In this document: one piece after another, positions 9,881 to 31,250 of the stretch
How positions within the stretch are numbered: the stretch's first letter is position 1
Layout of the letters: each line of letters opens with the position of its first letter
From: a virus
IMG/VR virus record: IMGVR_UViG_3300042889_000529
Span: 1 to 31,981 of that record
DNA length: 31,981 nucleotides
Reading direction: 5' to 3' (one strand)
The notes under the pieces: generated by a model
What the model was told of the DNA's origin: nothing
Database searches by the model: none
The model's input: the letters and a program-made list of their open reading frames with translations, nothing else
Made by a program: the position numbers and the translations under genes

Positions 9881-9881
9881 T

Positions 9882-10151: not shown

Positions 10152-10153
10152 AC

Positions 10154-10182: not shown

Positions 10183-10188
10183 AGTATA

Positions 10189-10704: not shown

Positions 10705-10713
10705 TTTAACCTC

Positions 10714-10735
10714 AGCTGGGGCCTGTGCCCCAGCT
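10714..10735 (+). terminator. Strong GC-rich hairpin between hsp20 and clpS
   Basis: A perfect 9-bp stem AGCTGGGGC / GCCCCAGCT with a CTGT loop. No T tract follows (AAATATC), so it may be an mRNA-stabilising or partial attenuation hairpin rather than a full terminator. Confidence 0.55.
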
Positions 10736-10765
10736 AAATATCTTACATAACACGGACAGCTTAAA

Positions 10766-11071: not shown

Positions 11072-11669
11072 TTTAGAAAATGTATTAATCATTGATATTG
11101 ATGATACGTGTGTCGACACGCTATCTTCTTTTATTAAATGGTTAGCTACTCTGGGCCGTCTCAAGAAAATTGAGATCGGACGAGTAATTGAAGATCGAGA
11201 AAATTTAGGCGATTGGTTGGGTATACCCAACGAATTGGTTGCATTATGGTTAAAAGAATTCAATGAATATTCATGGCAATGGGGCGCAATGCACCCGTGT
11301 CTACTAGCAGAAAAAGTTCTGCCAACGTTGGCAAATAATGGCTGGCACATCATTGGATACAGCAAGGCTACATCTGAACTAAGCAGAAGTGTATTGCGCA
11401 GAGCTAATTTAGAATTATTGTTTCCTGGTGTGTTCAAAGAATTGTTTGTTGTTAAGCGTGATGCAAATATATATTCAATGCTAAAAGAATATGATGATGC
11501 AATATGCGTTACTTCTACAATTTCGGGGGCACAAGCCTCTGCACAAGTAGGCCATGCAACATACCTTATGCAACATCCATGGAACAGCAACTTCTCGGGG
11601 TTGTCTGCTCGTAAATTCAAAAATTGGAAAAGCATTGAAGAAGTATTGTTAAAAATACCAGCAACATAA
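11055..11669 (+). CDS. HAD-superfamily phosphatase-like protein, 204 aa, TTG start
   Basis: TTG 11055 has AGGAG six bases upstream, inside the end of clpS, so the two overlap by 17 bases. LIIDIDDTC carries the HAD motif I DxDxT (Asp14, Asp16). GYSKAT near 98-103 fits motif II Ser, VVKRD near 136 supplies a Lys as motif III, and YDDAICVTST near 150 resembles motif IV. An all-helical cap appears inserted after motif I, as in the 5'(3')-deoxyribonucleotidase group. It may dephosphorylate nucleotides or a small metabolite; substrate not determined. Confidence 0.75.
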   Translation: MNLQDDLENVLIIDIDDTCVDTLSSFIKWLATLGRLKKIEIGRVIEDRENLGDWLGIPNELVALWLKEFNEYSWQWGAMHPCLLAEKVLPTLANNGWHIIGYSKATSELSRSVLRRANLELLFPGVFKELFVVKRDANIYSMLKEYDDAICVTSTISGAQASAQVGHATYLMQHPWNSNFSGLSARKFKNWKSIEEVLLKIPAT

Positions 11670-11683
11670 TCATTAACTAAACT

Positions 11684-12676
11684 ATGAGCATAGTACCACC
11701 ACATAAAATAACATGGGTAGAAGCAGATAAACAAACACTTCGTTTAACTGGGCAATACCAGCAACTTCCGCCGGGTACAAGTCCCAAAGAAGACTTAGAG
11801 TTTTGGGCTAACTTAGGAGATCAATCTCTTGCTGTTATGCTGTTAAATGGTAGCAAGCCATGGAACCATTATGCTAAAATTGGTAATCGAGTTGTTGAAG
11901 TACCAGCGCATATCGATCTTGGATTTTTAACACACATCAGCCCAGCCGCCTGGCCCGAGTTATCTTTCGTTGATCATAAGTGGACTCCTATACCCTGGGT
12001 GCCACTTGATATTCCTAAAATTGAACCCGATGATTGGGATCTGTTTTGGCAGCTATGGAATGAAAAAAATGCAGACATCACCCGCGGCAATCCTAAAGAA
12101 AGCCAATACTGGAAAGGACTGTGCTGCTGGTTAAATCCCGAAATTGATCATACTAAGTTCAACTACAGCAACACAGTAATTGATGATTGGTCTAAGCACT
12201 TCCCTAAAATGTTTGAACAGATTTTTAATTGCTTACCTTTTTACAGCATTGAGAAAGTTGTGCTATGGTCAAACATTAATGAAGTCAATCCACACTTTGA
12301 CCCAGATGCTGTTATATATCCGTTCCCCGATAGTTTACGTATCATGCTGTGGAACACCAATGATCAACCAACGTTTTATGTAAACAAGTGGCCTAAGAGA
12401 ACATCTGACTTTAATCCGCCGTCGGTCAAAGTTCGCACTGGCGGCTCGGGGTATGGTATTAAATCAGCTCGTGTCCCGCAAGAAGATAGGATGTATGTTA
12501 ACATTCCCACAGACACAAATACATTTGTCTTTAATAATGGTGCATTCTTGCATGGCGCAGATTTAGCTAAGCCAAAGATTATCATGGCCGTTAAAGGCAG
12601 ACCAGACATATACAAGTGGCTTCGAGCATTAGAAACAAGTTATGAAAAGTATAAGGACCAAATACCAAAATGTTAA
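11684..12676 (+). CDS. Fe(II)/2-oxoglutarate oxygenase-like protein, 330 aa
   Basis: The C-terminal half shows a jelly-roll oxygenase pattern: NPHFDPDAV gives HxD (His204, Asp206), FNNGAFLHGADLAKPKI gives distal His290 with Lys297 or Arg306 as possible cosubstrate anchor, and SLRIMLWNT lies between as a core strand. The N-terminal 190 residues are of unknown type and Trp-rich. I could not match it to a named family by eye; the aspartyl hydroxylase group is closest. It begins 15 bases after the HAD gene and overlaps the next gene by seven bases, so it forms a pair with another Fe/2OG protein. Confidence 0.65.
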   Translation: MSIVPPHKITWVEADKQTLRLTGQYQQLPPGTSPKEDLEFWANLGDQSLAVMLLNGSKPWNHYAKIGNRVVEVPAHIDLGFLTHISPAAWPELSFVDHKWTPIPWVPLDIPKIEPDDWDLFWQLWNEKNADITRGNPKESQYWKGLCCWLNPEIDHTKFNYSNTVIDDWSKHFPKMFEQIFNCLPFYSIEKVVLWSNINEVNPHFDPDAVIYPFPDSLRIMLWNTNDQPTFYVNKWPKRTSDFNPPSVKVRTGGSGYGIKSARVPQEDRMYVNIPTDTNTFVFNNGAFLHGADLAKPKIIMAVKGRPDIYKWLRALETSYEKYKDQIPKC

Positions 12677-14147: not shown

Positions 14148-14909
14148 ATGATAACTATCTACATGAATGTATTCAATCAACACAATCCTAATGCAGTACA
14201 AGGTGCTGGTGTTAGCGGTAGCCGCCAAGGAATAGGCAATGTCAATCCTGCTATCCTTGCTGCTGAAATGGCATTAAGTCAAATTGGAAATTTTGAACCA
14301 CTTGATTATAAACTTGACACGGCAGGCATTGAAAATGTTATTGCCAGCAAGTATAGCAATGATTGGGTAGATTATTTGCCGCGCACTGATCGCCCAAACA
14401 ATCGTAGATCAATGACATTGACAACGATTCCTGGTTGGGATCATCGTCAAGCCCCAAGTATTCCAGAGGCAACAAATGCATTAGGTCGCACTCCCAAAGA
14501 AACAGAATTCTGTGTGCCTACACAGTTATATCATGATTGCAATCAGTCCAGCCCAGGGCTGATAAGCCTTAAAGATTTCTTAGATGAATGGCAACCACTT
14601 GGTCGATCCTTCATTATCAATTCAGGAATTGGCGGGTACTTTGTCCCGCATCGCGATCACCCAGGAATGCCAAGGCCATGCTTTCGTCTTGTGGCATTCC
14701 TAAAGAACTGTGGTCCATATGAATATGACTGGCTAATGGATAATCACAGCAAGGCAAACATTGAAATTGGAAGAGTGTATTATGTAAACACTCGTCTGAC
14801 TCATAGGACAATTAGCTGGACGCCCGAGTCCTGGCACCTAATTTTAAATGTACCATTTACAACAGAGAATGTAGATCGCGTATTGAAGCACTTACAGCAC
14901 AGGCATTAA
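14148..14909 (+). CDS. Fe(II)/2-oxoglutarate oxygenase-like protein, 253 aa
   Basis: GGYFVPHRDHPG gives HxD (His168, Asp170); IEIGRVYYVNTRLTHRTISW gives distal His219; SWHLILNVPF is the following core strand. In the AspH pattern an Arg normally stands ten residues after the distal His; here that place is Trp229, so cosubstrate binding may differ or another residue may serve. The Gly-rich N-terminus (GAGVSGSRQGIG) is unusual. The start has no clear ribosome site; ATG at 14163 is an alternative. It shares one base with the QueC-like gene (TAATG), pairing the two. Confidence 0.72.
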   Translation: MITIYMNVFNQHNPNAVQGAGVSGSRQGIGNVNPAILAAEMALSQIGNFEPLDYKLDTAGIENVIASKYSNDWVDYLPRTDRPNNRRSMTLTTIPGWDHRQAPSIPEATNALGRTPKETEFCVPTQLYHDCNQSSPGLISLKDFLDEWQPLGRSFIINSGIGGYFVPHRDHPGMPRPCFRLVAFLKNCGPYEYDWLMDNHSKANIEIGRVYYVNTRLTHRTISWTPESWHLILNVPFTTENVDRVLKHLQHRH

Positions 14910-15547
14910 TGATAGTATACACAGGCCCCAATGGCGACAAACGTCAAATTGAAATTAAATTTCCCGAAGGTAAGAAACGCATTGGCGTAATGTTAAGTGG
15001 TGGTGCTGATTCGGCTATCCTACTTTATTTGCTGGCGTTAGAACGTAAGATGGCAGGAAGCAATCAGGAGATTGTCGCATTTACTGTTGCAAGGCCAGAT
15101 GGAGCTTGGAACTATGTTGAGGCAATTGTTAATAAGATTAATGCAATGCTTGCCATTGATTTATCAGCACCAATTCAAGTCGGTGATGCTACGCTGCATC
15201 ATAGTGAGCAAGGTCGTAGCGGGGAACTCGAGGCCCGCAGCAAATATAAGATTGATCATTTTTATTATGGTAGCCAGCAGCATCCACCAAAAGAGCTGAT
15301 CACCTTGCCCGGCGAATATCCCAATCGTCCAGATAAGATTGAACTGTCTGGTACTACAATTCCGTTTGCATTAGTTGACAAGCGACATACATTAGGATTG
15401 TATGAAGTATTCCAAGCGTGGCCTTTAATTGAACTTACCCATTCATGTACCGCACTGACAGAAGGCAGATGCGGGGAATGTTATAACTGCAAAGAACGCG
15501 AATGGGCGTTGGCTGCATTAGATGTCATTGATCCGGGGTCAATGTAG
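14909..15547 (+). CDS. QueC-like PP-loop ATP pyrophosphatase, 212 aa
   Basis: IGVMLSGGADSAILLYLL contains the PP-loop SGGxDS (residues 30-35), which binds ATP and adenylates a substrate. The C-terminus has Cys180, Cys188, Cys191 and Cys194 (C-x7-C-x2-C-x2-C), the zinc site found in QueC, the 7-cyano-7-deazaguanine synthase. The middle part differs from standard QueC, with no clear DYGQ block, so the substrate may be another carboxylate or base. QueD, QueE and FolE homologues are absent here. The gene is co-translated with an Fe/2OG-like protein and ends 23 bases into the convergent radical SAM gene. Confidence 0.72.
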   Translation: MIVYTGPNGDKRQIEIKFPEGKKRIGVMLSGGADSAILLYLLALERKMAGSNQEIVAFTVARPDGAWNYVEAIVNKINAMLAIDLSAPIQVGDATLHHSEQGRSGELEARSKYKIDHFYYGSQQHPPKELITLPGEYPNRPDKIELSGTTIPFALVDKRHTLGLYEVFQAWPLIELTHSCTALTEGRCGECYNCKEREWALAALDVIDPGSM

Positions 15548-16478
15548 GGGCACGTTTGTTTATTGTTATTCCGCTGGCCGCTTTGCAATAAAGTTGTGGG
15601 CATGTTATATCTTTTTCACGTAGTGCAAACGTGTCAATCTCACCTAGTCTTTTAATGTGGCAAACTGCGTAAACACTTCCGTCAAAGCTGACACGGATAC
15701 CATCTCGGCCAGCACTGCATGACCAGCCCGTGAAACTATTCTGTCCAGCATTTATTAGATCAAATGCATTTAAGTTAGTTTTTGAACCGTCGTCGTAAAT
15801 TGCGTATACTCGTTTTCTTCCGTCCTTACCTGCAATTCGACTTTGTTCTACTTTGATAAAGTCAAGTTGCCCTTGGTAGTAATTATCAAAAGGCTTTCCA
15901 CTTGTTGGACCATTTGAATGATCAGTTAGAATCTTTGCGTTAATGCGATTATGCAGCGTAGCGTCCAATGAATTTTTTACATTGATAACCCAATCCCAGT
16001 TATCTGGATCGCACATTAAATTAAACACTAAATCAACATCGTTCTCGAGTAAAAACAGTCCCAATTCGTTTATCTTTTCAAGTTTACTAAATTCTGGGTG
16101 CAGGGAAATTGTCACTTTGTCAGGTAAGGATTTCATATCTCGCCACCAAGCAGCACTGCGACTGCCATTGGTGACAACTTCAATTGAGCCGCTGCCTGAC
16201 ATACGTTCAATGATTGTTTTAAATTTTGGGTGCAGTGTGGGTTCGCCGCCTGAAATGGTCATATTTAAAAATCTGCCATTTAAGTGCTTGGTCAGTACAT
16301 TCTCAATGAAAGTGTCAATTTGACTATCAGTTGGAAACCCAGGTTGTTCCCCGCGAGCATAAGTTCCAACATGCAGATTATCTGGACAATAGCTGCATTT
16401 AAAGTTGCACATGTCTGTTAGGGTCCAATACACGTATAGTGTGTCTGTGCCGCGCACAATTTCAGTTAATTTTTTCAT
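15525..16478 (-). CDS. Radical SAM enzyme with C-terminal auxiliary Cys region, 317 aa
   Basis: TDMCNFKCSYC gives the CxxxCxxC cluster motif (Cys24, Cys28, Cys31) that binds the SAM-cleaving 4Fe-4S cluster. MTISGGEPTLHP is the GGE motif for SAM binding, and EVVTNGSRS and VTISLHPEF are later barrel strands. Past the barrel, GWSCSAGRDGIRVSF, VCHIKRLG and CPQLYCK hold further Cys residues spaced like a SPASM/twitch auxiliary cluster. Such enzymes often modify peptides or complex small molecules. It is the last gene of the minus-strand operon, overlapping its paralogue by ATGA. Substrate unknown. Confidence 0.86.
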   Translation of the reverse strand: MKKLTEIVRGTDTLYVYWTLTDMCNFKCSYCPDNLHVGTYARGEQPGFPTDSQIDTFIENVLTKHLNGRFLNMTISGGEPTLHPKFKTIIERMSGSGSIEVVTNGSRSAAWWRDMKSLPDKVTISLHPEFSKLEKINELGLFLLENDVDLVFNLMCDPDNWDWVINVKNSLDATLHNRINAKILTDHSNGPTSGKPFDNYYQGQLDFIKVEQSRIAGKDGRKRVYAIYDDGSKTNLNAFDLINAGQNSFTGWSCSAGRDGIRVSFDGSVYAVCHIKRLGEIDTFALREKDITCPQLYCKAASGITINKRAPTLTPDQ

Positions 16479-17416
16479 AGTTGTGGAGATATTTTTGTTA
16501 TTGCAAGATCACCGGGGCATTTGCAGTATGGTACACGACACGTCAACATATCAGTAATTGGTTTAAAATCTTTTATGTGGCCTAAATTCTCAGCCTGGCA
16601 GATACCAGCCCACACTGTGCCGTTTGGAGTAACTTTGAAGCCATCTCGTCCTGCACTGCACGACCACCCTTTGAACTGGTGTTGATTATTATTGATAACT
16701 TCAAACTGCCGTAAAGCTGTAACAGACCCATCGTCATAAGTGACTCGGCTTATTAAATGTGGGGTCGCTTTGCGTTTCGTTGATTGAGTTTTCTTAATAA
16801 ACTCTAATTGTTCCGGGGCATATTCGTAAAGTTGCCCTGAGGTATAGCCAGCATCAAAGTTATGTCTGGTCAATATCTTTGCGTCTATTAGTTGATGCAA
16901 AGTTGAATCTAATGTGGATTGCACACTAGTGACCCAGTCCCAATTAGCAGGATCTGCTACAAGATTGAAACGTACATCAACACCTGCAGAATCTAAATAG
17001 AGTGCAAGCTCGTTTATTTTTTCTAAATTTGTAAACTCTTGGTGCAGAGAAATTATAACTTTATTTGGCAATGTAGGTAAATTCTTCCACCAGGCCAATG
17101 GTCTACTTCCATTAGTGATTGTTTCTAAAGTTGAACCTGGAAACTCTGCAACAGCTGATAAAATAGTTTCATACATTGGGTGGGTTGTTGGTTCGCCTCC
17201 AGTTAAACAAACCGTTAGTAGTTTATCTTTGGAATAAGTTCGCAGCGAAGCCAGAAACAGTTGAATATCAACGTCACTGGGAAAGTCTTTGCTTTTTTGA
17301 TAGTGGCCTTCGTGCAGTGTTGGGCAGCAATAACTACATTCAAAGTTGCAATAGTCTGTCAGTAGCCAATACAAATACACATAGTTGTCGCGGCGAATTT
17401 CAATAATTTTTTTCAT
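16475..17416 (-). CDS. Radical SAM enzyme, paralogue of the neighbouring one, 313 aa
   Basis: TDYCNFECSYC gives Cys23, Cys27 and Cys30; CLTGGEPTTHP and ETITNGSRP match the neighbour at 15525 block for block. The C-terminal GWSCSAGRDGFKVTP, GICQAENLG and CRVPYCKCPGD again supply auxiliary Cys residues, with one extra Cys here. The two proteins share length and order throughout, so they arose by duplication. Keeping both suggests a heterodimer or two successive reactions. It overlaps the oxygenase-like gene upstream and the paralogue downstream by four bases each. Confidence 0.86.
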   Translation of the reverse strand: MKKIIEIRRDNYVYLYWLLTDYCNFECSYCCPTLHEGHYQKSKDFPSDVDIQLFLASLRTYSKDKLLTVCLTGGEPTTHPMYETILSAVAEFPGSTLETITNGSRPLAWWKNLPTLPNKVIISLHQEFTNLEKINELALYLDSAGVDVRFNLVADPANWDWVTSVQSTLDSTLHQLIDAKILTRHNFDAGYTSGQLYEYAPEQLEFIKKTQSTKRKATPHLISRVTYDDGSVTALRQFEVINNNQHQFKGWSCSAGRDGFKVTPNGTVWAGICQAENLGHIKDFKPITDMLTCRVPYCKCPGDLAITKISPQL

Positions 17417-18947: not shown

Positions 18948-18976
18948 TTGACAATTGGGCCAGGGCGCAGTATAAT
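18948..18976 (+). promoter_or_regulatory. Perfect sigma-70 promoter opening the small-gene region
   Basis: TTGACA (18948-18953), 17 bp and TATAAT (18971-18976), preceded by CCGG and followed by TAACACTTAAACAGCAA, which is nearly repeated after the promoter at 19255. ATG follows 30 bases after the -10 box. Confidence 0.88.
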
Positions 18977-19006
18977 TAACACTTAAACAGCAAACGGGAG
19001 ACCCAA

Positions 19007-19237
19007 ATGATTACACTCAAACAAGTCCAAAGCATTTTTAAACAACACAACCGATCAGCTCTGACTCGAAAAGGTTTTAAAAACGAACGGATTGTGACCA
19101 GCTATGTAAGCAGTAGAGAGTCAGCAACCGATTTGATTAGAGATTTAGAGCAGGCTGCAGGGCCGGAAAACATAGATGTTGATCGCTCAGACAAGGACGG
19201 CATCATTGCAGTTTCTGTGCGATGCATCCTGGCGTAA
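19007..19237 (+). CDS. Hypothetical early protein, 76 aa
   Basis: The first gene behind a consensus promoter, with GGGAGA as ribosome site about ten bases before ATG. The N-terminal half is basic (KQVQSIFKQHNRSALTRKGF), the second half has ATDLIRDLEQAAGPENIDV and a final beta strand DGIIAVSVRCIL, suggesting a small alpha/beta fold. I recognise no family. Its separate strong promoter suggests high early expression, as for phage host-takeover proteins. Confidence 0.75.
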   Translation: MITLKQVQSIFKQHNRSALTRKGFKNERIVTSYVSSRESATDLIRDLEQAAGPENIDVDRSDKDGIIAVSVRCILA

Positions 19238-19254
19238 TTTTTCAGACAAAACGG

Positions 19255-19283
19255 TTGACCTTTATTCACCGAAATGCTATAAT
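19255..19283 (+). promoter_or_regulatory. Sigma-70 promoter for the tandem small-gene array
   Basis: TTGACC (19255-19260), 17 bp and TATAAT (19278-19283), preceded by ACGG and followed by TAACACTTAAACGGCAA, nearly identical to the region after the promoter at 18948. ATG is again 30 bases after the -10 box, with AGGAGA as ribosome site. Confidence 0.86.
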
Positions 19284-19313
19284 TAACACTTAAACGGCAA
19301 CAAGGAGAGCAGC

Positions 19314-19520
19314 ATGAATATGAGCTACTGCATGTTTCAAAATACCGCAATTGATCTGCGTCACTGTGTGGAGGCCATGGATGCAGCAGACACCATAGAG
19401 GAACTGGATCTGAGCCGTGACGAAAAACGCAGCTACGACCTCATGCGAGAATACTGCGAAAACTTTTTGAACATTGCTGAACGACTGGATCATGCCGAAG
19501 CCTTGGGAGTCGAAGAATGA
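19314..19520 (+). CDS. Hypothetical protein, 68 aa, first gene of the array
   Basis: A Cys- and Asp/Glu-rich small helical protein (DLRHCVEAMDAADTIEELDL) without the array's FAELIV core. It still ends in LGVEE, encoded by GGAGTCGAAGAATGA, the array junction. The C-terminus therefore matches unrelated genes downstream only at the junction. Function unknown. Confidence 0.72.
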   Translation: MNMSYCMFQNTAIDLRHCVEAMDAADTIEELDLSRDEKRSYDLMREYCENFLNIAERLDHAEALGVEE

Positions 19521-19780
19521 ACGAACATCTAATCAGGAAAATCGCAAATCAATCATCAACCTATGCCGAGGATACGGTTGAATATTATGGCGGCATTGCC
19601 GCTGACGGTCTGACTTGGGATTCTAAGATTCTCAAGTCCCGAGACTTGAAGTTCGCCGAATTGATTGTGCGGGAATGTGCTGATTTTATTGATGCACACA
19701 AACGGGTTGACGAATACGGTCTAGCATGTGATATAGTATATGGTGAAGATTTGATGAAACATTTAGGATTTGGAAAATGA
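19517..19780 (+). CDS. FAELIV-family small protein, 87 aa
   Basis: Family layout: MNEHLIRKIANQS start, variable middle, LKFAELIVRECADFI near residue 45, and an ending LMKHLGFGK in place of KQHFGVEE. The end therefore lacks the standard junction, although GGATTTGGAAAATGA still gives a weaker coupling signal for the next gene. Function unknown. Confidence 0.75.
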   Translation: MNEHLIRKIANQSSTYAEDTVEYYGGIAADGLTWDSKILKSRDLKFAELIVRECADFIDAHKRVDEYGLACDIVYGEDLMKHLGFGK

Positions 19781-20121
19781 ACACACGAATTCGAGAACTA
19801 CTGAAACAGGCAACTAAAACAGTTGATCCCGAAAACCGTGTATGGGTGTTTTCTAAGGTTGACCAAGCAAAGTTCGCCGAACTGATTGTGGCTGAATGTT
19901 TGGCCCAGGTTGCTAAGGTGGATGACATGTTGGAAGATGAGCCTGCACAACATGCGGCAGTGGCCTGGGTGGCCTCGTCGATTGCAGACCATTTTGGAGT
20001 TGCAAAACCACAGTCAGACTGGGATCAAGAAGCAGCTGAATTTATTGCGGCAGAGGATAAAAAGGTTGCCAGCAGATACGGATATGTCCCAAAACTACAT
20101 CCCTCAGAATGGAAAGACTAA
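19777..20121 (+). CDS. FAELIV-family protein with C-terminal extension, 114 aa
   Basis: MNTRIRELLKQATK starts as in the family; AKFAELIVAECLAQVA is the core; SIADHFGVAK matches the usual ending but the frame reads on for about 35 residues (PQSDWDQEAAEFI to HPSEWKD). The usual stop has been replaced, so this member carries an extra acidic/aromatic tail and loses the standard junction before the next start. Confidence 0.75.
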   Translation: MNTRIRELLKQATKTVDPENRVWVFSKVDQAKFAELIVAECLAQVAKVDDMLEDEPAQHAAVAWVASSIADHFGVAKPQSDWDQEAAEFIAAEDKKVASRYGYVPKLHPSEWKD

Positions 20122-20388
20122 ATGAACACACGAATTAAAGAACTACATAATCAGGCTTGTAGATTTGATATGGAACATTACCCAAATGCTATTCCAGATG
20201 GAGAAAGAATCCAGCAAAAGTTCGCCGAGTTGATTGTGACGGAATGCTTGCGGCAGGTTGAAGAACAATACAAGCCTGTGTTGGAAGATGAAGTCATGAT
20301 GAAGGACACGCATTGGGGTGGATATGTCCAATGCGGTGTTGATAGTTATGTGGCCATTAGAGAACATTTTTTTGGAGTTGAAGAATGA
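20122..20388 (+). CDS. FAELIV-family small protein, 88 aa
   Basis: MNTRIKELHNQACRF, a 20-residue variable loop, QQKFAELIVTECLRQVEEQY, a second variable part and IREHFFGVEE. Its start is nearly identical at the DNA level to that of the preceding gene (ATGAACACACGAATT), suggesting recent duplication of this part. The start follows TAA directly, without the junction. Confidence 0.77.
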   Translation: MNTRIKELHNQACRFDMEHYPNAIPDGERIQQKFAELIVTECLRQVEEQYKPVLEDEVMMKDTHWGGYVQCGVDSYVAIREHFFGVEE

Positions 20389-20591
20389 ACCTACGAATTC
20401 GAGAGTTGGCTGAACAATGCTGGGACAAGCGTCCAGAAGACCAACTACATTTTGACAACGAAAAATTCGCCGAGTTGATTGTTAAGAAATGTATGGATGT
20501 TGCCAAGTATCACACACCCGACACAGAAGAATGTGAATATACATGGTTGATCCATGACAAGATTGAAGAATATTTCGGAGTAGAAGAATGA
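20385..20591 (+). CDS. FAELIV-family small protein, shortest member, 68 aa
   Basis: MNLRIRELAEQCW, a short loop, NEKFAELIVKKCMDVAKYH, then IEEYFGVEE. Both flanking parts are reduced, so it shows the minimal family: N-terminal helix, core helix, terminal helix. Confidence 0.76.
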   Translation: MNLRIRELAEQCWDKRPEDQLHFDNEKFAELIVKKCMDVAKYHTPDTEECEYTWLIHDKIEEYFGVEE

Positions 20592-20752
20592 AAAAATTTA
20601 CTGATGTTTTGGAAGAGTATTTGTATGAGCGTGATCGCCAGAACAGTAACTATTATGATAACCGCTACATCGGCGAAAGAACCCAAGGGCGATATCATAT
20701 GGAAGACTTGGCAAAAGAATTGAACAAAATGATTCACGGAGTTAAAGAATGA
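20588..20752 (+). CDS. Small charged protein, 54 aa, unrelated to the array family
   Basis: MKKFTDVLEEYLYERDRQNS, then YYDNRYIGERTQGRYHMED and LAKELNKMIHGVKE. I recall this YIGERTQGR-type sequence from other phage small proteins, without known function. It lies between two FAELIV genes and still has GGAG and ATGA at both ends, with ending Gly-Val-Lys-Glu, as if inserted as a cassette. Confidence 0.68.
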   Translation: MKKFTDVLEEYLYERDRQNSNYYDNRYIGERTQGRYHMEDLAKELNKMIHGVKE

Positions 20753-21009
20753 ACAAACGACTTCGAGCTCTTGCTGAAAAAGCAAACATTGAGTTTACCT
20801 ATGACCCAACAGAGACACCTATCAGAGCATTTGCCGAGTGTTGGGAAGATGATCTTGAAAAGTTCGCTGACATGATTGTGAAGGAATGTATCGCTCAATG
20901 TGAAAGCCAGAACACAGTCATTACCACAGATATAGGCACAGAAGCGTGGGGAGAAATTTCTGATGCGGTAGAGCAGATTAAACGACATTTTTACGGAGTT
21001 GCAGAATGA
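20749..21009 (+). CDS. FAELIV-family small protein, 86 aa
   Basis: MNKRLRALAEKANIEFTYD starts the gene; LEKFADMIVKECIAQCES is the core, with Asp-Met replacing Glu-Leu as in the member at 22173; VEQIKRHFYGVAE ends it. GGAGTTGCAGAATGA is the junction to the next gene. Confidence 0.77.
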   Translation: MNKRLRALAEKANIEFTYDPTETPIRAFAECWEDDLEKFADMIVKECIAQCESQNTVITTDIGTEAWGEISDAVEQIKRHFYGVAE

Positions 21010-21239
21010 ACCAACGAGTTAAAGCGTTATACGATCAAAGTCTCATCCGTGAGCACGGCACAGATTACGAAGGTAATCCCATACTAAAAATAACAATAGA
21101 TCAACAAAAATTCGCCGAGTTGATTGTGCAGGAATGTGTTGCTATTGCTAATAGACAGTTTAGTGCGGCAACGGGATTAGATGACCGTGACTGTTTGACT
21201 GCTCAACAGATGAAACAACATTTTGGAGTTGGACTATGA
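21006..21239 (+). CDS. FAELIV-family small protein, 77 aa
   Basis: MNQRVKALYDQSLIREHG, QQKFAELIVQECVAIANRQF and MKQHFGVGL. The end has changed from Val-Glu-Glu to Val-Gly-Leu, but the nucleotides GGAG and ATGA are kept (GGAGTTGGACTATGA). This is a case where the ribosome site is preserved while the amino acids are not. Confidence 0.77.
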   Translation: MNQRVKALYDQSLIREHGTDYEGNPILKITIDQQKFAELIVQECVAIANRQFSAATGLDDRDCLTAQQMKQHFGVGL

Positions 21240-21355
21240 CACAGAACGATTGGGTATTACTAATGTGTCTAGCAATTGGATGGCTACAGGGTCTGTATAT
21301 TGGATGGTTACTGTGGCGTAGACCACAATTGAAATATCACGGAGTTGAAGAATGA
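21236..21355 (+). CDS. Single-pass membrane miniprotein, 39 aa
   Basis: MTQNDWVLLMCLAIGWLQGL with YIGWLLWRRP is one Trp-rich hydrophobic helix of about 22 residues followed by Arg-Arg, favouring a cytoplasmic C-terminus. The tail HGVEE is the array junction. Not related to its neighbours. Too short for a functional call; phage miniproteins of this kind can act on host membranes. Confidence 0.6.
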   Translation: MTQNDWVLLMCLAIGWLQGLYIGWLLWRRPQLKYHGVEE

Positions 21356-21567
21356 ACGAACGATTAAAAGAACTTTATACACAAGTCTGTATGGAACAGA
21401 AGCTTCCCTTTACCGTTGAGCATAATAATGCGGTTATGTTGGATGCGTTTGCCAACAAGTTCGCCAAGTTGATTGTGCTGGAATGTTCCAGCATTTGCTA
21501 CAAGGCATTAGAAAATGGTGATGAGGCTGCTAGCCTTTTGATGAACACATTCGGAGTTGAAGAATGA
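21352..21567 (+). CDS. FAELIV-family small protein, 71 aa
   Basis: MNERLKELYTQVCMEQK, FANKFAKLIVLECSSICYKA and MNTFGVEE. The core Glu is Lys here (FAKLIV). A perfect junction stands at both ends. Confidence 0.76.
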   Translation: MNERLKELYTQVCMEQKLPFTVEHNNAVMLDAFANKFAKLIVLECSSICYKALENGDEAASLLMNTFGVEE

Positions 21568-21857
21568 ACGAACGAATTCGAAAACTTTCTGAACAGGCTC
21601 ATCATAGTACAAGGGATGCATTGATTCATCTCGAACGGGTACATAACAGAACATATGACCTCAATGAAAGTGCAGTAATATACAATGAAAAGTTCGCCCA
21701 GTTGATTGTGCGAGAATGTCTCAGAGAATTGCAATATACGGTTCTTGACACACAGGAATTGCGCCGGGACAAAAGTACAGATTATCAAGTAGGTTGGGAA
21801 GATGGTATGTTTGATGCCGGGGAAATGATTAAACAACATTTCGGAGTTGAAGAATGA
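21564..21857 (+). CDS. FAELIV-family small protein, 97 aa
   Basis: MNERIRKLSEQAHHSTRDA, NEKFAQLIVRECLRELQYTV, a long second variable part containing YQVGWEDGMFDAGEMI, and KQHFGVEE. It is the longest regular member. The YQVGWEDGMFDA segment is a plausible extra helix not seen in the others. Confidence 0.77.
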   Translation: MNERIRKLSEQAHHSTRDALIHLERVHNRTYDLNESAVIYNEKFAQLIVRECLRELQYTVLDTQELRRDKSTDYQVGWEDGMFDAGEMIKQHFGVEE

Positions 21858-22060
21858 GGATAGAAACAATAACAACAGATCATGAATTTCAATTTTGGGT
21901 TATTGCCGAATATGAACCGGGCAAGCGAGTTACCAAAGATATGATAACTTTTGATACTAACCGACCGGATGTTCATGTAAACAAGTATGGCGTGGTACTA
22001 TTCCGTGATAATGATACAGCACTGAGGTTGTTGAAAAAAGATTTCGGAGTTGAAGAATGA
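21854..22060 (+). CDS. Hypothetical protein, 68 aa, unrelated to the array family
   Basis: MRIETITTDHEFQFWVIAEY, then beta-rich DVHVNKYGVVLFRDNDTALR and LLKKDFGVEE. It lacks the FAELIV core and seems to be a small beta/alpha domain. Only its end matches the neighbours, through the junction. Confidence 0.7.
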   Translation: MRIETITTDHEFQFWVIAEYEPGKRVTKDMITFDTNRPDVHVNKYGVVLFRDNDTALRLLKKDFGVEE

Positions 22061-22176
22061 TTAACGATATTTTCCTTTGGATGATGACGCTGCCACAGGT
22101 TTGGCTACAGGTCATGTGGGTAGGCAGTATTGTTATGCCAATTGTGATAGCAGGCGTTTTTAGGATCATCCAATGA
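22057..22176 (+). CDS. Membrane miniprotein, 39 aa
   Basis: MINDIFLWMMTLPQVWLQVM followed by VGSIVMPIVIAGVFRIIQ: hydrophobic almost throughout, fitting one or two membrane segments. It starts at a perfect junction but ends in CAATGA without GGAG, so the following gene lacks the usual ribosome site. No function assigned. Confidence 0.55.
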   Translation: MINDIFLWMMTLPQVWLQVMWVGSIVMPIVIAGVFRIIQ

Positions 22177-22409
22177 ACGAACGAATTCAAGAACTTGCGG
22201 TTGAGGCCGGAATGTATGTAGACCTTAACGGTAGTCCGTGGCCGCGAGCCATGTCAGCCGAAGAATGTGAAGCAGCCTATAAAAAGTTCGCCGACATGAT
22301 TGTTAGAGAATGTTGCCATGTCATGGAATCTTTACCTTCATCGACATATCATGTTGGTCGATCCAGAATGTCAGAAGAAATTAAACAACATTTCGGAGTT
22401 GAAGAATGA
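22173..22409 (+). CDS. FAELIV-family small protein, 78 aa
   Basis: MNERIQELAVEAGMYVDLNG, KKFADMIVRECCHVMESL and EEIKQHFGVEE. The Asp-Met core variant and the Pro-rich loop (GSPWPRAMSAEE) distinguish it. A perfect junction follows. Confidence 0.77.
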   Translation: MNERIQELAVEAGMYVDLNGSPWPRAMSAEECEAAYKKFADMIVRECCHVMESLPSSTYHVGRSRMSEEIKQHFGVEE

Positions 22410-22624
22410 ACACTCCAATTGTACCAGATAATAAATTCAAGTTTTGGGCGGATCCTAGATTTGAAATACTGGCCGAAGTTGACAAATTGTTAAACGGCAG
22501 CAAGATTTGGGGCGGTATGGAATGGGTCTATCATCCCATCCATCCTGTGAAATATCAGCCTGTTGCTGACAGGGTTCGTCTAGCATTGGAAGCGTTAAAA
22601 GCAGAATATGGAATTGAAGAATGA
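22406..22624 (+). CDS. Hypothetical protein, 72 aa, unrelated to the array family
   Basis: MNTPIVPDNKFKFWADPRFE, then LNGSKIWGGMEWVYHPIHP and LEALKAEYGIEE. KFKFWAD recalls FQFWVIAEY of the gene at 21854, hinting at a second small family. It ends in Gly-Ile-Glu-Glu with GGAATTGAAGAATGA, a junction variant in which the ribosome site has weakened to GGAA. Confidence 0.68.
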   Translation: MNTPIVPDNKFKFWADPRFEILAEVDKLLNGSKIWGGMEWVYHPIHPVKYQPVADRVRLALEALKAEYGIEE

Positions 22625-22791
22625 TTACACTGTTTATTTGGACTGTGGTCGGCTACGCTGGTATGAACCATAGCACCAGTACTAAAATGGACTGGCGGGC
22701 TTTGGCTCAATTTGAAACAGTCACGCTCTGTGAGGAGGCTGTGCGATCCATGAACCTACAGGACAGGCACCGTTGCCTGAAGACTAAATGA
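22621..22791 (+). CDS. Small exported or membrane-anchored protein, 56 aa
   Basis: MITLFIWTVVGYAGMNHSTS is a short hydrophobic, signal-like start. FETVTLCEEAVRSMNLQDRH and CLKTK follow, with two Cys that could pair. The pattern LCxxA...C-x-K-T-K recalls small periplasmic phage proteins. It ends in AAATGA, overlapping the next start. Confidence 0.58.
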   Translation: MITLFIWTVVGYAGMNHSTSTKMDWRALAQFETVTLCEEAVRSMNLQDRHRCLKTK

Positions 22792-22919
22792 ACGAACATG
22801 ATAGAAAACTACTTAATAGTTATTTCTTTGTCAATGGTGTAATCGCTGTAATTATAGTTATTGGTGCGGCACTGGCAATGTTGATAATCACAGCGTATAC
22901 CCTTTGGAATATGACATGA
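22788..22919 (+). CDS. Single-pass membrane miniprotein, 43 aa
   Basis: MNEHDRKLLNSYFFVNGVIA and VIIVIGAALAMLIITAYTLW: a short charged start and a membrane helix of about 25 residues. The first four codons copy the family start (ATGAACGAA), though the rest is unrelated. It overlaps the next gene by ATGA. Confidence 0.58.
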   Translation: MNEHDRKLLNSYFFVNGVIAVIIVIGAALAMLIITAYTLWNMT

Positions 22920-23146
22920 ACGAACGAATTAAACAACTTGCTGAGCAGGCTACTACTATTGTAGAAATGGTTAGCTCATATGGTTATATGAGCAGTTATG
23001 CTAACTTTGACCGAGAAAAGTTTGCCGAACTGATTGTTCGGGAATGCCTGGATCAATGCTATAATCGTGGTATGAACTCTGAATTGTATTCTGGACAGTT
23101 GAAAGCCGCAGCATATATTGAAGAACATTTTGGAGTTGAAGAATGA
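22916..23146 (+). CDS. FAELIV-family small protein, last member, 76 aa
   Basis: ATG 22916 gives the standard start MNERIKQLAEQATTIV and the ATGA overlap; an ATG four codons earlier is less likely. REKFAELIVRECLDQCYNRG is the core and YIEEHFGVEE the end. A perfect junction leads into the larger, unrelated gene at 23143. Confidence 0.77.
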   Translation: MNERIKQLAEQATTIVEMVSSYGYMSSYANFDREKFAELIVRECLDQCYNRGMNSELYSGQLKAAAYIEEHFGVEE

Positions 23147-23838
23147 CTCCTGCTGAACGAAAAGCCATTCTCAAAGATAAAAAACTACCAATTCGCATCG
23201 CCTGGGCGCTGGTGGCCTTTGCTGATCGACTCAATAAGGGTGCTTATATCAAGTTTCCAGAATGCGATGCAGAAACTGGCAATGTGACTCAACGCCCAAA
23301 TCGCGAACTTATCTCAGATCAAATCACATTAGGGCTATGCGGTCTAACCGAAGCTGATTACACACTTGGAGATAAATTTGCCGAGCATTTTCAAGGTTTG
23401 ATATTTGATGCACTCGGCGGTAAGTCAACTGAGTTTGATCAAAAAATTATCAACTTAATATCAGAATCTGACATTGAATATCAATCAATGGCATTTTTGG
23501 CATGCATGGGTGCTAGATATCATCGTGACACTGTCAAAGAATACAAAAATGAAATGATGTTTAAACTTGGGTCGACAAGTCAACATCAAGGCACCATTGG
23601 AGAGCATCTAAGATTAAATGTCACTGTGCTGTCAAAGTATGAAGGTAAAGCATTTCCTGGCTCGGTTGTGCGGGCCACTGACGGCACCAATTTATATTTT
23701 TGGTCGTCGAGTAAAATGATTGACATGTGGCCAGATTCGCCTGAGCAGTTTCCCATTGTGGGAGTGGTCAAAGCACACGGGATCGATCGTGACAATTACA
23801 CAGAAACCAGACTGACTCGAGTTAAGATCACACTGTGA
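23143..23838 (+). CDS. Phage protein with probable OB-like C-terminal domain, 231 aa
   Basis: The N-terminal part (about 1-140) is helical: MTPAERKAILKDKKLPIRIA, DKFAEHFQGLIFDALGG. The C-terminal part, from HLRLNVTVLSKYEG, alternates beta strands (GSVVRATDGTNLYFWSS, VGVVKAHGIDRDNYTETRLT) in a pattern I associate with oligonucleotide-binding folds in phage proteins. It could be a DNA- or RNA-binding accessory protein. This is a low-level inference; no catalytic motif is seen. It is coupled to the array by the junction. Confidence 0.7.
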   Translation: MTPAERKAILKDKKLPIRIAWALVAFADRLNKGAYIKFPECDAETGNVTQRPNRELISDQITLGLCGLTEADYTLGDKFAEHFQGLIFDALGGKSTEFDQKIINLISESDIEYQSMAFLACMGARYHRDTVKEYKNEMMFKLGSTSQHQGTIGEHLRLNVTVLSKYEGKAFPGSVVRATDGTNLYFWSSSKMIDMWPDSPEQFPIVGVVKAHGIDRDNYTETRLTRVKITL

Positions 23839-23878
23839 ATTTTATCAAGCATAACTAACTTATGCTTAAGGAAAATAA

Positions 23879-24463
23879 ATGACCGCTGCCACTGGATTTG
23901 CTGAAATGTTTGAATGGGAAGACGGCAACCCAATGAACGAAGATCGCGGCGGCCGAACTGTTGTGCTAGTTGGCGACAAAATTAGAATAGCAACTGATAC
24001 CGATATCCCAATTGGAGTTATTGGCGGAGACAACACTGCCATAGCAGCAATTAGCAATGCTAGTCCAATGGAATGGCATGGAAAACATTTACGCGATCCG
24101 CTTAATCGGTTGCTATGGGAGCCGCAATCGATGGTAGAGTGGACTGACAACGGATATCGACACTGGTACGAAGCTGATCGTGTTCCCGAAGGCATCACTG
24201 TGCCCGAAATTGCCACTTACTATCACGACATATGGAATGGTCATAAACTACAACGAGAAATCCTCAGTGAGGAATTTAAAAATCCTAACAAAACTATTGA
24301 TCCATACTTGCCCAGATGGGAAAGATCAAATTGGGGTATTGTGGTACTACTAGGTCGTGTTATGATCATTGAAAGCAGCGTGTGCAATTTAAATTGGAAA
24401 AAGTTAAAAACAGTATCAGGTACAGTTGGCGGCGAATCTGTGTCAGAGTGGTTAATACACTAA
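23879..24463 (+). CDS. Peptidase G2-type autoproteolytic chaperone domain, stand-alone, 194 aa
   Basis: MFEWEDGNPMNEDRGGRTVV and GDKIRIATDTDIPIGVIGG, then EWHGKHLRDPLNRLLWE, are the signature blocks of the peptidase G2 intramolecular chaperone domain found at the C-termini of phage tail and fibre proteins. The end, from NWGIVVLLGRVMIIES to SVSEWLIH, is also typical. Normally the domain follows a fibre or pre-neck appendage sequence and cuts itself off. Here only about ten residues stand before it, so it is a free domain, perhaps acting in trans or left over from recombination. Confidence 0.78.
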   Translation: MTAATGFAEMFEWEDGNPMNEDRGGRTVVLVGDKIRIATDTDIPIGVIGGDNTAIAAISNASPMEWHGKHLRDPLNRLLWEPQSMVEWTDNGYRHWYEADRVPEGITVPEIATYYHDIWNGHKLQREILSEEFKNPNKTIDPYLPRWERSNWGIVVLLGRVMIIESSVCNLNWKKLKTVSGTVGGESVSEWLIH

Positions 24464-24474
24464 GAGAAAGAAAA

Positions 24475-24714
24475 ATGACAAAATTAAATGAACACGCGAC
24501 AACAATTTTGATAGGTGGCCTAAAGGAAATGCTTGTCAATAGAAAATATATTTACGTCAGTACTTCAAACCCAAAATTCTCACATTTAGAAGATGCAGGC
24601 AAAGAGTTCGTTATAAGTCTAGTAGACACATTGTTGCCACTGCTAGTCGAAGCTAAGGCAGCACAAGCAAAGTTTGATGCAGAAGAACTAATGCTTAAAA
24701 AGTTGTCTGAATAA
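24475..24714 (+). CDS. Hypothetical helical protein, 79 aa
   Basis: ATG 24475 follows AGAGAAAG. MTKLNEHATTILIGGLKEML, KEFVISLVDTLLPLLVEAKA and AEELMLKKLSE indicate a mostly helical protein with an amphipathic C-terminus. No family recognised. It precedes the TauD-like gene by seven bases. Confidence 0.68.
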   Translation: MTKLNEHATTILIGGLKEMLVNRKYIYVSTSNPKFSHLEDAGKEFVISLVDTLLPLLVEAKAAQAKFDAEELMLKKLSE

Positions 24715-24721
24715 ATACAGT

Positions 24722-25570
24722 ATGCAAATACGAAATATATACGACAATTGGGGAACTGAGTTTACGGACATGAGTGATCTGTTTACTCAAAATACAAACG
24801 AACTAAGACAATTATTGTACAAGCGCAAGATGCTGGTGTTTCATGCACCAGCCTGGACACCGTGGCAGTTTACAGAGTTTTGCGCTTTGTGGGGACGGCC
24901 CTGGTCTGCTGTTGACTATTCGGTGAGCAGAGAAGTATGGCGCCATGCCACCAATCCAATTACACAGGAAAAACGCTTTTACACTGAGATCAGCAATAAG
25001 CTCAGTGCCCGCTTAAATGATTACGAAATGCCATGGCATGCTGATATTGCAAATCGAGTCAATGGCGAACTAAGTTTCCCGCACCGCGTTATCTATATGA
25101 AGACTGTGCCAAATCCAGCAGCTGGTTTTACAATCTGGCTTGATATGGAAGAAGCATATCCGCAGCTACCAGCTGGACTACGTAAACGTTGGGAAGCAGT
25201 CACAGTGGTACAACAAAACTGGCATTGGCCCGGCAAAGACATAATTGAATACCCTTCGATGAAAGTGCATCCAATTACCAAAAAGTTGAGCCCACGCTGC
25301 AACTTCCATGGGGTGCCAGATTCTTGGATTATTGATTTGAAACGTGATGGCTACAGCATTGGCACAGGTCTAGTAGAAGAACTAATGGAAGCTATGATGG
25401 AAGTTCCTAACAGTGTATATGAGCATCGATGGGCACCAAACGACATTGTGCTCTACGACAATACTCCAAGTGTGCATCGCAGAACGAATCCTAAACTGGC
25501 ACCTGGCCAAATTAGATCAATGTGGCGGGCCAACATTGATCATGATAAGGCAATTGCTGCAACGTTTTAG
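24722..25570 (+). CDS. TauD/TfdA-family Fe(II)/2-oxoglutarate dioxygenase, 282 aa
   Basis: MPWHADIANR gives HxD (His106, Asp108); LYDNTPSVHRRTNPKL gives distal His252; GQIRSMWRANID supplies Arg265 or Arg269 for 2-oxoglutarate. The N-terminal KRKMLVFHAPAWTPWQF is the usual TauD strand and helix before the core. Length agrees with TauD (about 283). Relatives oxidise taurine, alpha-ketoglutarate-dependent herbicides or amino-acid derivatives. It is convergent with the HNH gene, overlapping by four bases. A second TauD-like gene lies at 27444, too different for a recent copy. Confidence 0.87.
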   Translation: MQIRNIYDNWGTEFTDMSDLFTQNTNELRQLLYKRKMLVFHAPAWTPWQFTEFCALWGRPWSAVDYSVSREVWRHATNPITQEKRFYTEISNKLSARLNDYEMPWHADIANRVNGELSFPHRVIYMKTVPNPAAGFTIWLDMEEAYPQLPAGLRKRWEAVTVVQQNWHWPGKDIIEYPSMKVHPITKKLSPRCNFHGVPDSWIIDLKRDGYSIGTGLVEELMEAMMEVPNSVYEHRWAPNDIVLYDNTPSVHRRTNPKLAPGQIRSMWRANIDHDKAIAATF

Positions 25571-26130
25571 GCTTCTAGCTCGCTATCCCAATATAGATAA
25601 TCTCTCCAGGATTCATGCAAATTTGCATGCTTGCGAGGGATTTTTTTACCTCTAGCATACAAATCCCATGCACTTGGAGGAACAGGTTTTCTCAGAAGCT
25701 GCATATGAGACTCGTGCAATAGCTTTGAACCTTTACGGTGATTGCATGGGCCGCATGCTGCAACCACGTTAGTCCATGAACTAACACCGCCAGCTGCACG
25801 TGGCAACACATGGTCAAAGGTCAAATGCTTTGTTTCAAATTCCTTTGCGCAGTACTGGCAAGTAAATTCGTCGCGTAGGTAAACATTGTATCTGCTAAAA
25901 GTAGGTACTTGATCACGCTTGACATAGTCTTTAAGGGCAACCACACTGGGTAGGCGCCAAATTTCAGTAGCACTATGGATATCAATGTCGTACTCTGCAA
26001 CCACATTGACACGCCCGGAAATGACTGCTTTGATAGCATCTTGCCAGGTGATCGTGCTTAATGGGTTCATTTGCACTGGTTGAAAGTCTGCGTTGAGCAG
26101 AAGGGCTGGGTATTGTCCGTCTAAGATCAT
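25567..26130 (-). CDS. HNH endonuclease family protein, 187 aa
   Basis: ATG 26130 gives MILDGQYPALLLNADFQPV, the normal start of this family; the frame also runs back to a GTG at 26163. FTCQYCAKEF and CGPCNHRKGSK are the two Cys pairs of the zinc site and LTFDHVLPRAAGG holds the catalytic Asp-His. WQDAIKAV and LPSVVALKDYV are conserved helices of the N-terminal part. This type occurs in many bacteria and phages, often near DNA-packaging or repair genes; its target is not established. It is the only plus-flanked minus gene in this half, with its own control region. Confidence 0.88.
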   Translation of the reverse strand: MILDGQYPALLLNADFQPVQMNPLSTITWQDAIKAVISGRVNVVAEYDIDIHSATEIWRLPSVVALKDYVKRDQVPTFSRYNVYLRDEFTCQYCAKEFETKHLTFDHVLPRAAGGVSSWTNVVAACGPCNHRKGSKLLHESHMQLLRKPVPPSAWDLYARGKKIPRKHANLHESWRDYLYWDSELEA

Positions 26131-26801: not shown

Positions 26802-26946
26802 TCTTTGGTTTAATATTCGCTTTGGTACACGGCATTTCCAGTTTTCAAGAGACTGGGAAATTACGTTTCGTGTTAATCCCCATTGGATTGAAAATCCTCC
26901 TTCTACGTGGTTTGAAGTTTATTGTGTGTTTGGAAAACATCTATGA
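26794..26946 (+). CDS. Small aromatic-rich protein, 50 aa
   Basis: MSNLWFNIRFGTRHFQFSRD, WEITFRVNPHWIEN and PPSTWFEVYCVFGKHL: strongly beta-type with many Trp and Phe. The start lies inside the end of the previous gene with TTAGGAAG upstream; the stop overlaps the next ATG. Unknown function. Confidence 0.66.
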   Translation: MSNLWFNIRFGTRHFQFSRDWEITFRVNPHWIENPPSTWFEVYCVFGKHL

Positions 26947-27158
26947 TCGACGAAAGCCATTTGCCCGTAGCAGAACAAAGTTTAGTCTTTCGACTGCGCA
27001 AGCGAGCCGAGATTCGTAGACAAATTCCCAGTAGACAGTCAGTACTGGAAAATAAACCAGATCGAATTGCTACTTTGCTAGACGAAGCAGCTGATGAGAT
27101 TGAAAAATTACAAACAACTGTGGCAGCATTGGTTTCGCAAAGATTGGATGAATTATGA
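26943..27158 (+). CDS. Small coiled-coil protein, 71 aa
   Basis: ATG 26943 makes the usual ATGA overlap. SLVFRLRKRAEIRRQIPSRQ is basic, and DRIATLLDEAADEIEKLQTT a leucine-heptad helix likely to dimerise. The PDRIATLLDEAADEIEKL pattern recurs in phage genomes as small uncharacterised proteins. It overlaps the lipoprotein gene by four bases. Confidence 0.7.
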   Translation: MIDESHLPVAEQSLVFRLRKRAEIRRQIPSRQSVLENKPDRIATLLDEAADEIEKLQTTVAALVSQRLDEL

Positions 27159-30569: not shown

Positions 30570-31250
30570 ATGACAACACAAGTAATTTATTTTAACATTG
30601 ATACTAAGACAGAATTCACGCCTGCGCTGCTTGATTCGGCAGCTGAATTAACAGACAGCAAAATTGACATCTGCATGGATTGGGCTGAACTTGCCAATGC
30701 TATAGCCAACAACGAGTATAATACAAAGTTATTACTTGTACATATAAGTTTACTTGACAAACCAGGTACAACTTTAAATGAAGTTATTGATTCGTTAAAT
30801 TTAATTGCATCAATGATTGGCAATGGTATTAAACTAAGCACTGGGATAGTCATTGACAAGCTGTGTAGTCATAATATGATAACTTCATTGAAAAAGAGCC
30901 AGGTCAATGGCATTGTTCCTAGTCACTTGACATACGGATTTGACAAATGTTTTGAAACAATTAATGCTTTGTTGCGTGGTGAGCAGTCCTGGAATAGTTT
31001 GTACATTGAGCCCAGAGTAAAAGCCACAGTGCGCCACCCAGCTGATTACGGCATTCGGTTAACCTCTCGCCAGCACGACATAATGACTTTGGTATCCAAT
31101 CGTGGACTCAGCAATAAAAAGATTGCACAAGTTTTAAACATCAGTGAAAGCACAGTTAAGGTTCATATTAGTGCTATTTTAAAAGCATACGGAGTAAGAA
31201 ATCGGACTCAGTTGGCTCTAGCAGGCAGTGTGCAGGGTCTGCATGCATGA
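30570..31250 (+). CDS. LuxR/NarL-type transcription regulator with degenerate receiver, 226 aa
   Basis: The C-terminal RLTSRQHDIMTLVSNRGLSN then KKIAQVLNISESTVKVHISA and YGVRNRTQLAL is a clear LuxR-type helix-turn-helix (about 162-217). The N-terminal 140 residues have the strand/helix rhythm of a receiver domain, but the strand where the phosphorylated Asp should stand reads LLLVHISLLDKPG and has no Asp at the expected place. It is likely a phosphorylation-independent regulator of phage or host genes. It has its own promoter and leader. No partner kinase is visible. Confidence 0.85.
   Translation: MTTQVIYFNIDTKTEFTPALLDSAAELTDSKIDICMDWAELANAIANNEYNTKLLLVHISLLDKPGTTLNEVIDSLNLIASMIGNGIKLSTGIVIDKLCSHNMITSLKKSQVNGIVPSHLTYGFDKCFETINALLRGEQSWNSLYIEPRVKATVRHPADYGIRLTSRQHDIMTLVSNRGLSNKKIAQVLNISESTVKVHISAILKAYGVRNRTQLALAGSVQGLHA

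Follow-up and report, generated by a model that had tools for sequence, protein, structure and literature searches.

In T4-type phages the PeMobiles/PeSLs, repeats composed of an early promoter and a stem-loop, lie in the intergenic spaces between small accessory genes and are proposed sites of shuffling (PMC4503421 citing Arbiol 2010 and Comeau 2014). The nin region of lambdoid phages has tightly packed small genes with ATGA overlaps (PMC8022706 citing Kroger and Hobom 1982), and cluster K mycobacteriophages have start-associated sequences, GGGATAGGAGCCC-like 13-bp repeats placed 3-7 bp before the start codon (PMC3203893). The boundary-sequence model places homologous recombination in short conserved stretches that separate genes (Susskind and Botstein 1978; Clark 2001 on HK620; summarized in PMC3233612); illegitimate recombination is accepted as a main model for many mosaic phages (PMC3233612). 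We have analyzed a 31,981-base viral contig (IMG/VR record IMGVR_UViG_3300042889_000529), termed the window, that contains an array of small genes linked by a junction at which one short sequence encodes the end of one gene, a ribosome site and the start of the next.

The array appears operon-like, with ten diverged paralogs of one unnamed family, of predicted helix-strand-strand-helix-helix fold, together with unrelated genes that we term passengers (Table 1; genes are named by their first base). The family has the pattern MNERIxELAxQA...KFAELIVREC...HFGVEE, i.e. the motifs M-N-x-R-I at the start, KFAELIVxEC mid-gene and HFGVEE at the end. The gene start and KFAELIVREC are shared patches in addition to the junction. 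We conclude with high confidence that this is a modular array of small genes and that homologous recombination in short patches of coding DNA shuffles it. Two coding stretches are nearly identical among its genes, AAGTTYGCCGAGTTGATTGT (KFAELIV) in mid-gene and ...TTYGGAGTTGAAGAATGAACGAACGAATT... at the end/start junction, and recombination within them would allow whole genes, half genes and multi-gene blocks to be exchanged, gained and lost.

Gene order and the ends of shared blocks

A reading made earlier from the sequence alone (the sequence-only reading) had proposed that cassettes are gained and lost precisely at junctions, and comparison of gene order in other phages bears this out. The same cassettes are found there at 85-99% identity, in different order and present or absent exactly at junctions. 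The core genes (window 4000-12000) are only 65-73% identical over most of their length in G002, G008 and G010, and those of some other array phages, some of whose records are fragments, have no match to this region. Where the window and another phage share a highly identical block, it begins and ends at the junction with the following gene start, or at the KFAELIV patch. Near-identical modules with unrelated flanks on both sides occur in L147, L210, L075 and L133; that of L147 matches window 20217-20388, the second half of gene 20122 from KFAEL to the junction, at 99.4% identity. In L210 5072-5963, from the 111-kb contig G002, five pieces of the window (19777-20141, 20384-20482, 21457-21573, 22787-22954 and 21106-21239) are assembled in a new order at 87-97% identity, and base-level alignment places the switches within the shared start, KFAELIV and junction patches.

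Gains and losses follow the same pattern. L185 and L202 lack gene 20122, their flanks joining cleanly at a shared start patch of 21 bp, and gene 20588 is missing in L185, where the empty site keeps 17 bp of the junction. The differences between L070 and L094, and between L185 and L214, are blocks of 206-1208 bases; in most cases KFAELIV or start patches provide a shared tract of 15-48 bp, and in one case only ATGA is shared. The homologue of gene 22057 comes after that of gene 22406 in L209/L184, instead of after 21854. Passenger 22406 is found in >20 contigs with varied neighbours and many different downstream genes, with the junction at its 3' end; its complete copies end EYG[VI]xE/ATGA or EYGVE/TAATG, and one ends EYGVES. 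L214 has a homologue of gene 19314 that is joined in frame, through an HFGV patch, to the C-terminal portion of gene 19777. The proposal that the junction is the site of insertion and swapping is therefore partly upheld: exchange does occur exactly there, but the KFAELIV and internal HFGV patches are used too. As judged from the alignments, half genes are exchanged and fused via the mid-gene KFAELIV patch.

The ten family genes are true paralogs with conserved motifs, as expected if the array arose by vertical tandem duplication alone, with the patches kept by ordinary protein selection and no movement between phages. However, the tail is also carried by unrelated passengers, cassettes that are 85-99% identical lie in phages whose core genes are diverged or unmatched, gene orders differ, L210 shows switch points at the level of the base, and third codon positions are frozen in the patches only. 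We regard duplication alone as highly improbable. Since every sequence is a metagenomic contig with repeated patches, repeats of 20-45 bp might also have caused contigs to be misjoined during assembly. Yet L183, a separate contig, has the same sequence as window 22295-25621, a span with three junctions, and identical joins are present in the separate contigs L066 and L060, and L185 and L202. There is very little chance that such chimeras account for the data.

The cassette-like order and the exact joins would also be consistent with integron-like site-specific recombination, in which the junction is the site of a recombinase. Against this, the tyrosine-recombinase domain PF00589 was absent from 12 records (some of them fragments), in a search that was positive in 14 control genomes. 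As regards an attC-like site, the 15-bp junction sequence is asymmetric, and the switch points vary among start, KFAELIV, HFGV and junction. Moreover, the KFAELIV DNA pattern is found only in frame, inside open frames. Site-specific recombination is scarcely credible as the process.

In the window 45 of 48 block ends lie in patches, which make up 43% of the array. Over all loci the patches cover 34.5% of the array bases and hold 83-87% of block ends (85-95% identity), or 80% at >=95% identity. Simulated chimeras with random breakpoints returned 35.7% of ends in patches with a median error of 1 base, so BLAST does not draw the ends into patches. Illegitimate joining could occur anywhere, the survivors being those recombinants that respect gene boundaries; this accepted model would also predict breaks at junctions, and two indels outside patches (L124/L131 and L075/L148) indeed lack a shared overlap. 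But many ends lie inside genes, at the KFAELIV patches that have about 10% of the array bases and about one third of block ends, and most empty sites in arrays retain 15-48 bp of shared sequence. It is thus improbable that illegitimate joining is the general explanation.

Junction geometry, codon usage and mechanism

The window contains seven exact copies of GGAGTTGAAGAATGA, 12 at <=1 mismatch and 14 at <=3 mismatches. All 14 are on the + strand within 19506-23146, each at a gene junction; shuffled sequences averaged 1.06 at <=3 mismatches and never had more than 4. The original count of thirteen junctions is correct to within one, the difference being 19766-19780 (GGATTTGGAAAATGA), which may or may not be counted. 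The geometry was also read correctly: GGAG is followed by seven bases and then ATG, with stop and start overlapping as ATGA. Adjacent genes overlap by 4 bp with zero intergenic space, and the majority of junctions connect paralogs of the KFAELIV family. At loci found by the KFAELIV peptide, a choice independent of the junction sequence, exact GGAGTTGAAGAATGA accounts for 33 of the 94 ATGA overlaps that lie close to a family gene, compared with 7 of 221 elsewhere.

Given the ATGA overlap and the position of GGA at -11 from the ATG, GGA must share the reading frame of the upstream gene. Spacing of the ribosome site therefore dictates the tail's Gly, and Val-Glu-Glu is free of that constraint. 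Because the ribosome site sits in its last codons, an arriving gene with its junction would supply the start signal of its neighbour; the geometry agrees with the suggestion that each cassette carries a ribosome site and start overlap. This arrangement of ribosome site and ATG is seen directly, and from it we infer that the array is probably translationally coupled.

We compared codon usage in the patches with that of the gene bodies, at loci chosen by peptide. All three shared stretches depart from body usage: the first 12 codons (Asn AAC 0.88 vs 0.32, Arg CGA 0.86 vs 0.21), KFAELIVREC (Glu GAG 0.94 vs 0.23, Ala GCC 0.80 vs 0.24) and the gene end (GGA 0.92 vs 0.22, GTT 0.94 vs 0.40). Usage is back at body level immediately outside them. 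The GVEE codons are therefore frozen, where free variation would have counted against the sequence-only reading, but the KFAELIV patch, which has no ribosome-site role, is equally frozen. Codon freezing alone is thus not proof of selection on the ribosome site, and we have dropped it as such. We also discarded the idea of an internal start at KFAELIV, since the Val codon there varies (GTG/GTT). The mid-gene AAGTTYGCCGAGTTGATTGT is frozen in family genes of L008-L064 without a known DNA role.

Better evidence comes from the Gly codon and the spacing. Of 61 genes with a coupled ATG, 60 retain GGA, compared with 6 of 11 without such an ATG (Fisher p 1.8e-4, a value inflated by relatedness), and where the peptide ends one residue early (FGVE; TAATG or TGATG) the ATG is held at +11 from GGA. 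Selection on the ribosome site is supported by these two observations. Selection on a DNA signal, as put forward in the sequence-only reading, is therefore sustained by the Gly codon and the +11 spacing, not by the freezing of the GVEE codons.

HFGVEE and KFAELIV might instead be functional motifs of the proteins, e.g. a tag or a partner-binding tail, with DNA identity secondary. The HF ahead of the tail is conserved as peptide with greater synonymous freedom (TTC/TTT), and HFGV is often retained in uncoupled genes, both of which favour a role in the protein. The conserved HF, and the fact that ten of the genes are paralogs, contradict the idea that the tail is purely a DNA signal. Yet the ends vary (GVE, GVK, GVGL, GIEE) while GGAG and the ATG at +11 persist, and the change to GVGL with GGAG and ATGA retained that had been noticed in gene 21006-21239 is indeed present. 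In addition the patch codons are far from body usage, and the tail is carried by unrelated proteins and is coil in the model described below. We consider function at the protein level to be an unlikely explanation of the shared patches overall.

Genes 19314, 20588, 21236, 21854 and 22406 have bodies from outside the family yet share its tail; the last four, which had been described as having no similarity beyond the junction, do lack the family motif and end GVKE, GVEE, GVEE and GIEE respectively. About 49 protein clusters from outside the family, most of them single proteins, finish with the tail and an overlapping ATG, and tail-less homologues exist for several of these. The homologue of gene 21854 in L208 has a similar, alignable body, ends PNTRH and has the junction on neither side. 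The C-terminus of an Rv2179c-like exoribonuclease reads YGVKR in L125; in other loci it is YGKKNQ or YGEKQSD. In an AlphaFold2 model of gene 22916-23146 (helix-strand-strand-helix-helix, pLDDT 91) GVEE is coil beyond the last helix. This model, and the homologues with and without the tail, suggest that Gly-Val-Glu-Glu is a structurally free end that could be grafted onto unrelated proteins. A frequent passenger is a GIY-YIG-like nuclease, just under the Pfam cut-off (L080 8876-9208, L011 5081-5419, L066 11458-11946), that ends ALNTFGVK at a TAATG junction; tail-less homologues end ALNTL or ALNTH. This predicted nuclease could stimulate recombination in the array.

The comparisons establish switch points in the patches, and homologous recombination would be the process that places them there. 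The likely agent is a phage-encoded UvsX/RecA-like pathway, given that UvsX-like genes are present in some relatives (G002, G007 and G009). An ERF search was negative. Several points tell against shuffling by homologous recombination. Some 13-20% of the high-identity block ends fall beyond the recognised patches. Of 12 records, many of them fragments, only 3 yielded a recombinase. The tracts shared at clean indels are often 15-25 bp, under the minimum of roughly 30 bp for lambda Red or RecA (PMC2327257). The sequences are related, so that counts are not independent and the p-values of the codon counts are inflated. Lastly, both translational coupling and recombination are deduced from sequence.

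The patches might be kept identical by their own recombination, as selfish, self-propagating homology adaptors. Modules with consensus ends would enter other phages, and those that have drifted could not. This would explain both the freezing of KFAELIV without a ribosome role and the GVEE tail on unrelated genes. We offer it tentatively, and put its chances at somewhat below even.

Array genes, promoters and distribution

KFAELIV-type arrays, borne by uncultivated tailed phages, are widespread in IMG/VR, with 57 loci found by peptide search and at least 120 stretches by junction pattern. Searches of 50,697 deposited phage records by blastn and tblastn, with one query being a hand-composed consensus-like sequence, gave no match to the arrays, and a search of bacterial and archaeal genomes gave no confirmed relative. 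For gene 20588 a search for relatives yielded none that passed tblastn confirmation, although three homologues were present among the loci already collected. No convincing relative was found in Pfam, PHROGs or the PDB. A fold search with the family model matched uncharacterised proteins of uncultured phages, and no solved structure at E < 0.001. L122 (IMGVR_UViG_2626541589_000001), whose record number differs in type from those of the metagenome contigs and which is possibly an isolate or single-cell genome, carries an array and might point to a host.

The two best + strand promoters of the window both precede the array, which may be transcribed from them. The leader of the nearer promoter, TATAATTAACACTTAAAC...AGGAG, is a repeated patch common to other phages. 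In a mismatch-tolerant search the repeated promoter leader TTGACC...TGCTATAATTAACACTTAAACAGCAAACAGGAG was found in 52 copies at 26 loci, ahead of small genes; a search with a fixed pattern gave none. It is seen at window 18948-19310, in L017, L189, L211, L214 and others, with several copies per phage, and resembles T4-type mobile promoter cassettes.

The window also contains a NolO-like carbamoyltransferase (1077-2534), an Hsp20 (10231-10704) and a sigma-factor-like gene (30570-31250). Together with UvsX in relatives, these suggest a T4-like myovirus; a search for gp23, run without a positive control, was negative. Two adjoining radical-SAM-like genes on the - strand (15525-17416) lie beside a QueC-like gene (14909-15547). 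About 165 bases of window 26943-27113 are present at 69-78% identity in many loci (L155, L159, L161, L011, L066, L103, L130), apparently a further shared module outside the array.

Table 1. Promoters, genes, junctions and mid-gene patches of the array, in window coordinates
Feature	Position	Strand	Remarks
Promoter, sigma-70 type	18948-18976	+	Upstream of array; TTGACA-17-TATAAT, 12/12
Promoter, sigma-70 type	19255-19283	+	Directly before array; TTGACC-17-TATAAT, 11/12, TG extension
Passenger	19314-19520	+	Ends GVEE at first junction
Family gene 1	19517-19780	+	KFAELIV at 19649; ends GFGK
Family gene 2	19777-20121	+	KFAELIV at 19870; internal HFGVA patch and extra C-terminal part
Family gene 3	20122-20388	+	
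Family gene 4	20385-20591	+	
Passenger	20588-20752	+	Ends GVKE; homologues in L133, L080, L171 bounded by junctions
Family gene 5	20749-21009	+	
Family gene 6	21006-21239	+	Ends GVGL; GGAG and ATGA retained
Passenger	21236-21355	+	39-aa hydrophobic protein; ends GVEE; 93% match in L209, L211
Family gene 7	21352-21567	+	
Family gene 8	21564-21857	+	
Passenger	21854-22060	+	Ends GVEE; homologue in L208
Passenger	22057-22176	+	MINDIFLWMM...
Family gene 9	22173-22409	+	
Passenger	22406-22624	+	In >20 viral contigs
Passenger	22621-22791	+	MITLFIWTVVGY...; other position in gene order in L211
Passenger	22788-22919	+	MNEHDRKLL...; L210 copy 97% identical, different neighbour
Family gene 10	22916-23146	+	
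Junction 1	19506-19520	+	GGAGTCGAAGAATGA
Junction	19766-19780	+	GGATTTGGAAAATGA; counted in 14 but optional
Junction	20374-20388	+	Exact GGAGTTGAAGAATGA
Junction	20577-20591	+	GGAGTAGAAGAATGA
Junction	20738-20752	+	GGAGTTAAAGAATGA
Junction	20995-21009	+	GGAGTTGCAGAATGA
Junction	21225-21239	+	GGAGTTGGACTATGA
Junction	21341-21355	+	Exact GGAGTTGAAGAATGA
Junction	21553-21567	+	Exact GGAGTTGAAGAATGA
Junction	21843-21857	+	Exact GGAGTTGAAGAATGA
Junction	22046-22060	+	Exact GGAGTTGAAGAATGA
Junction	22395-22409	+	Exact GGAGTTGAAGAATGA
Junction	22610-22624	+	GGAATTGAAGAATGA
Junction	23132-23146	+	Exact GGAGTTGAAGAATGA; upstream of gene 23143-23838
KFAELIV patch, mid-gene	20218-20247	+	Second class of crossover site; one of ten
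Other KFAELIV patches (starts)	19649, 19870, 20463, 20860, 21108, 21457, 21690, 22284, 23018	+	

Comparison with known systems

It is a long-standing question whether phage mosaicism arises via homologous recombination at short boundaries or via random illegitimate joining. Here the boundaries, which lie within coding DNA, are legible per base in many related arrays, both break position and codon usage are controlled for, and the array system is a natural test bed. It is a plausible route by which phages sample small genes with expression intact, and presents a widespread undescribed protein family that draws unrelated genes into its own operon. The sequence-only reading held that no such junction had been described. 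This was too strong, because boundary-sequence exchange and ATGA-linked gene chains are already described in other phages. As far as the literature examined goes, the novelty lies in a crossover site that is a dual-coding junction, in the patch at mid-gene, in the grafting of the tail and in base-level evidence from an undescribed family.

As with integron cassettes, genes are exchanged as units of an array. Unlike integrons, exchange is at patches of coding homology and includes half genes, and no integrase was found in 12 records. The resemblance to the lambdoid nin region, with its consecutive ATGA-linked small genes, concerns organisation, and the part of the nin description used here names neither a paralogous family, a mid-gene patch nor a GVEE tail. 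Like the start-associated sequences of cluster K, the junction is a repeated ribosome-site sequence before unrelated small genes; it differs from them in sequence and in being both a coding end and a crossover site, and the relevant part of PMC3203893 reports no link of those sequences to gene exchange. The PeMobiles/PeSLs share with the array short regulatory repeats among small genes, proposed shuffling, and a setting in which relatives encode UvsX-like proteins. In contrast to them, the array repeat lies in coding DNA, contains a ribosome site and a stop/start overlap and is supplemented by a mid-gene patch, and the repeated promoter leader is not the main crossover site. As in boundary-sequence mosaicism, module boundaries here coincide with short conserved sequences. 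The array departs from that model, as summarized in the source, in its dual-coding boundary, in a further boundary within genes and in a tail carried by unrelated proteins.

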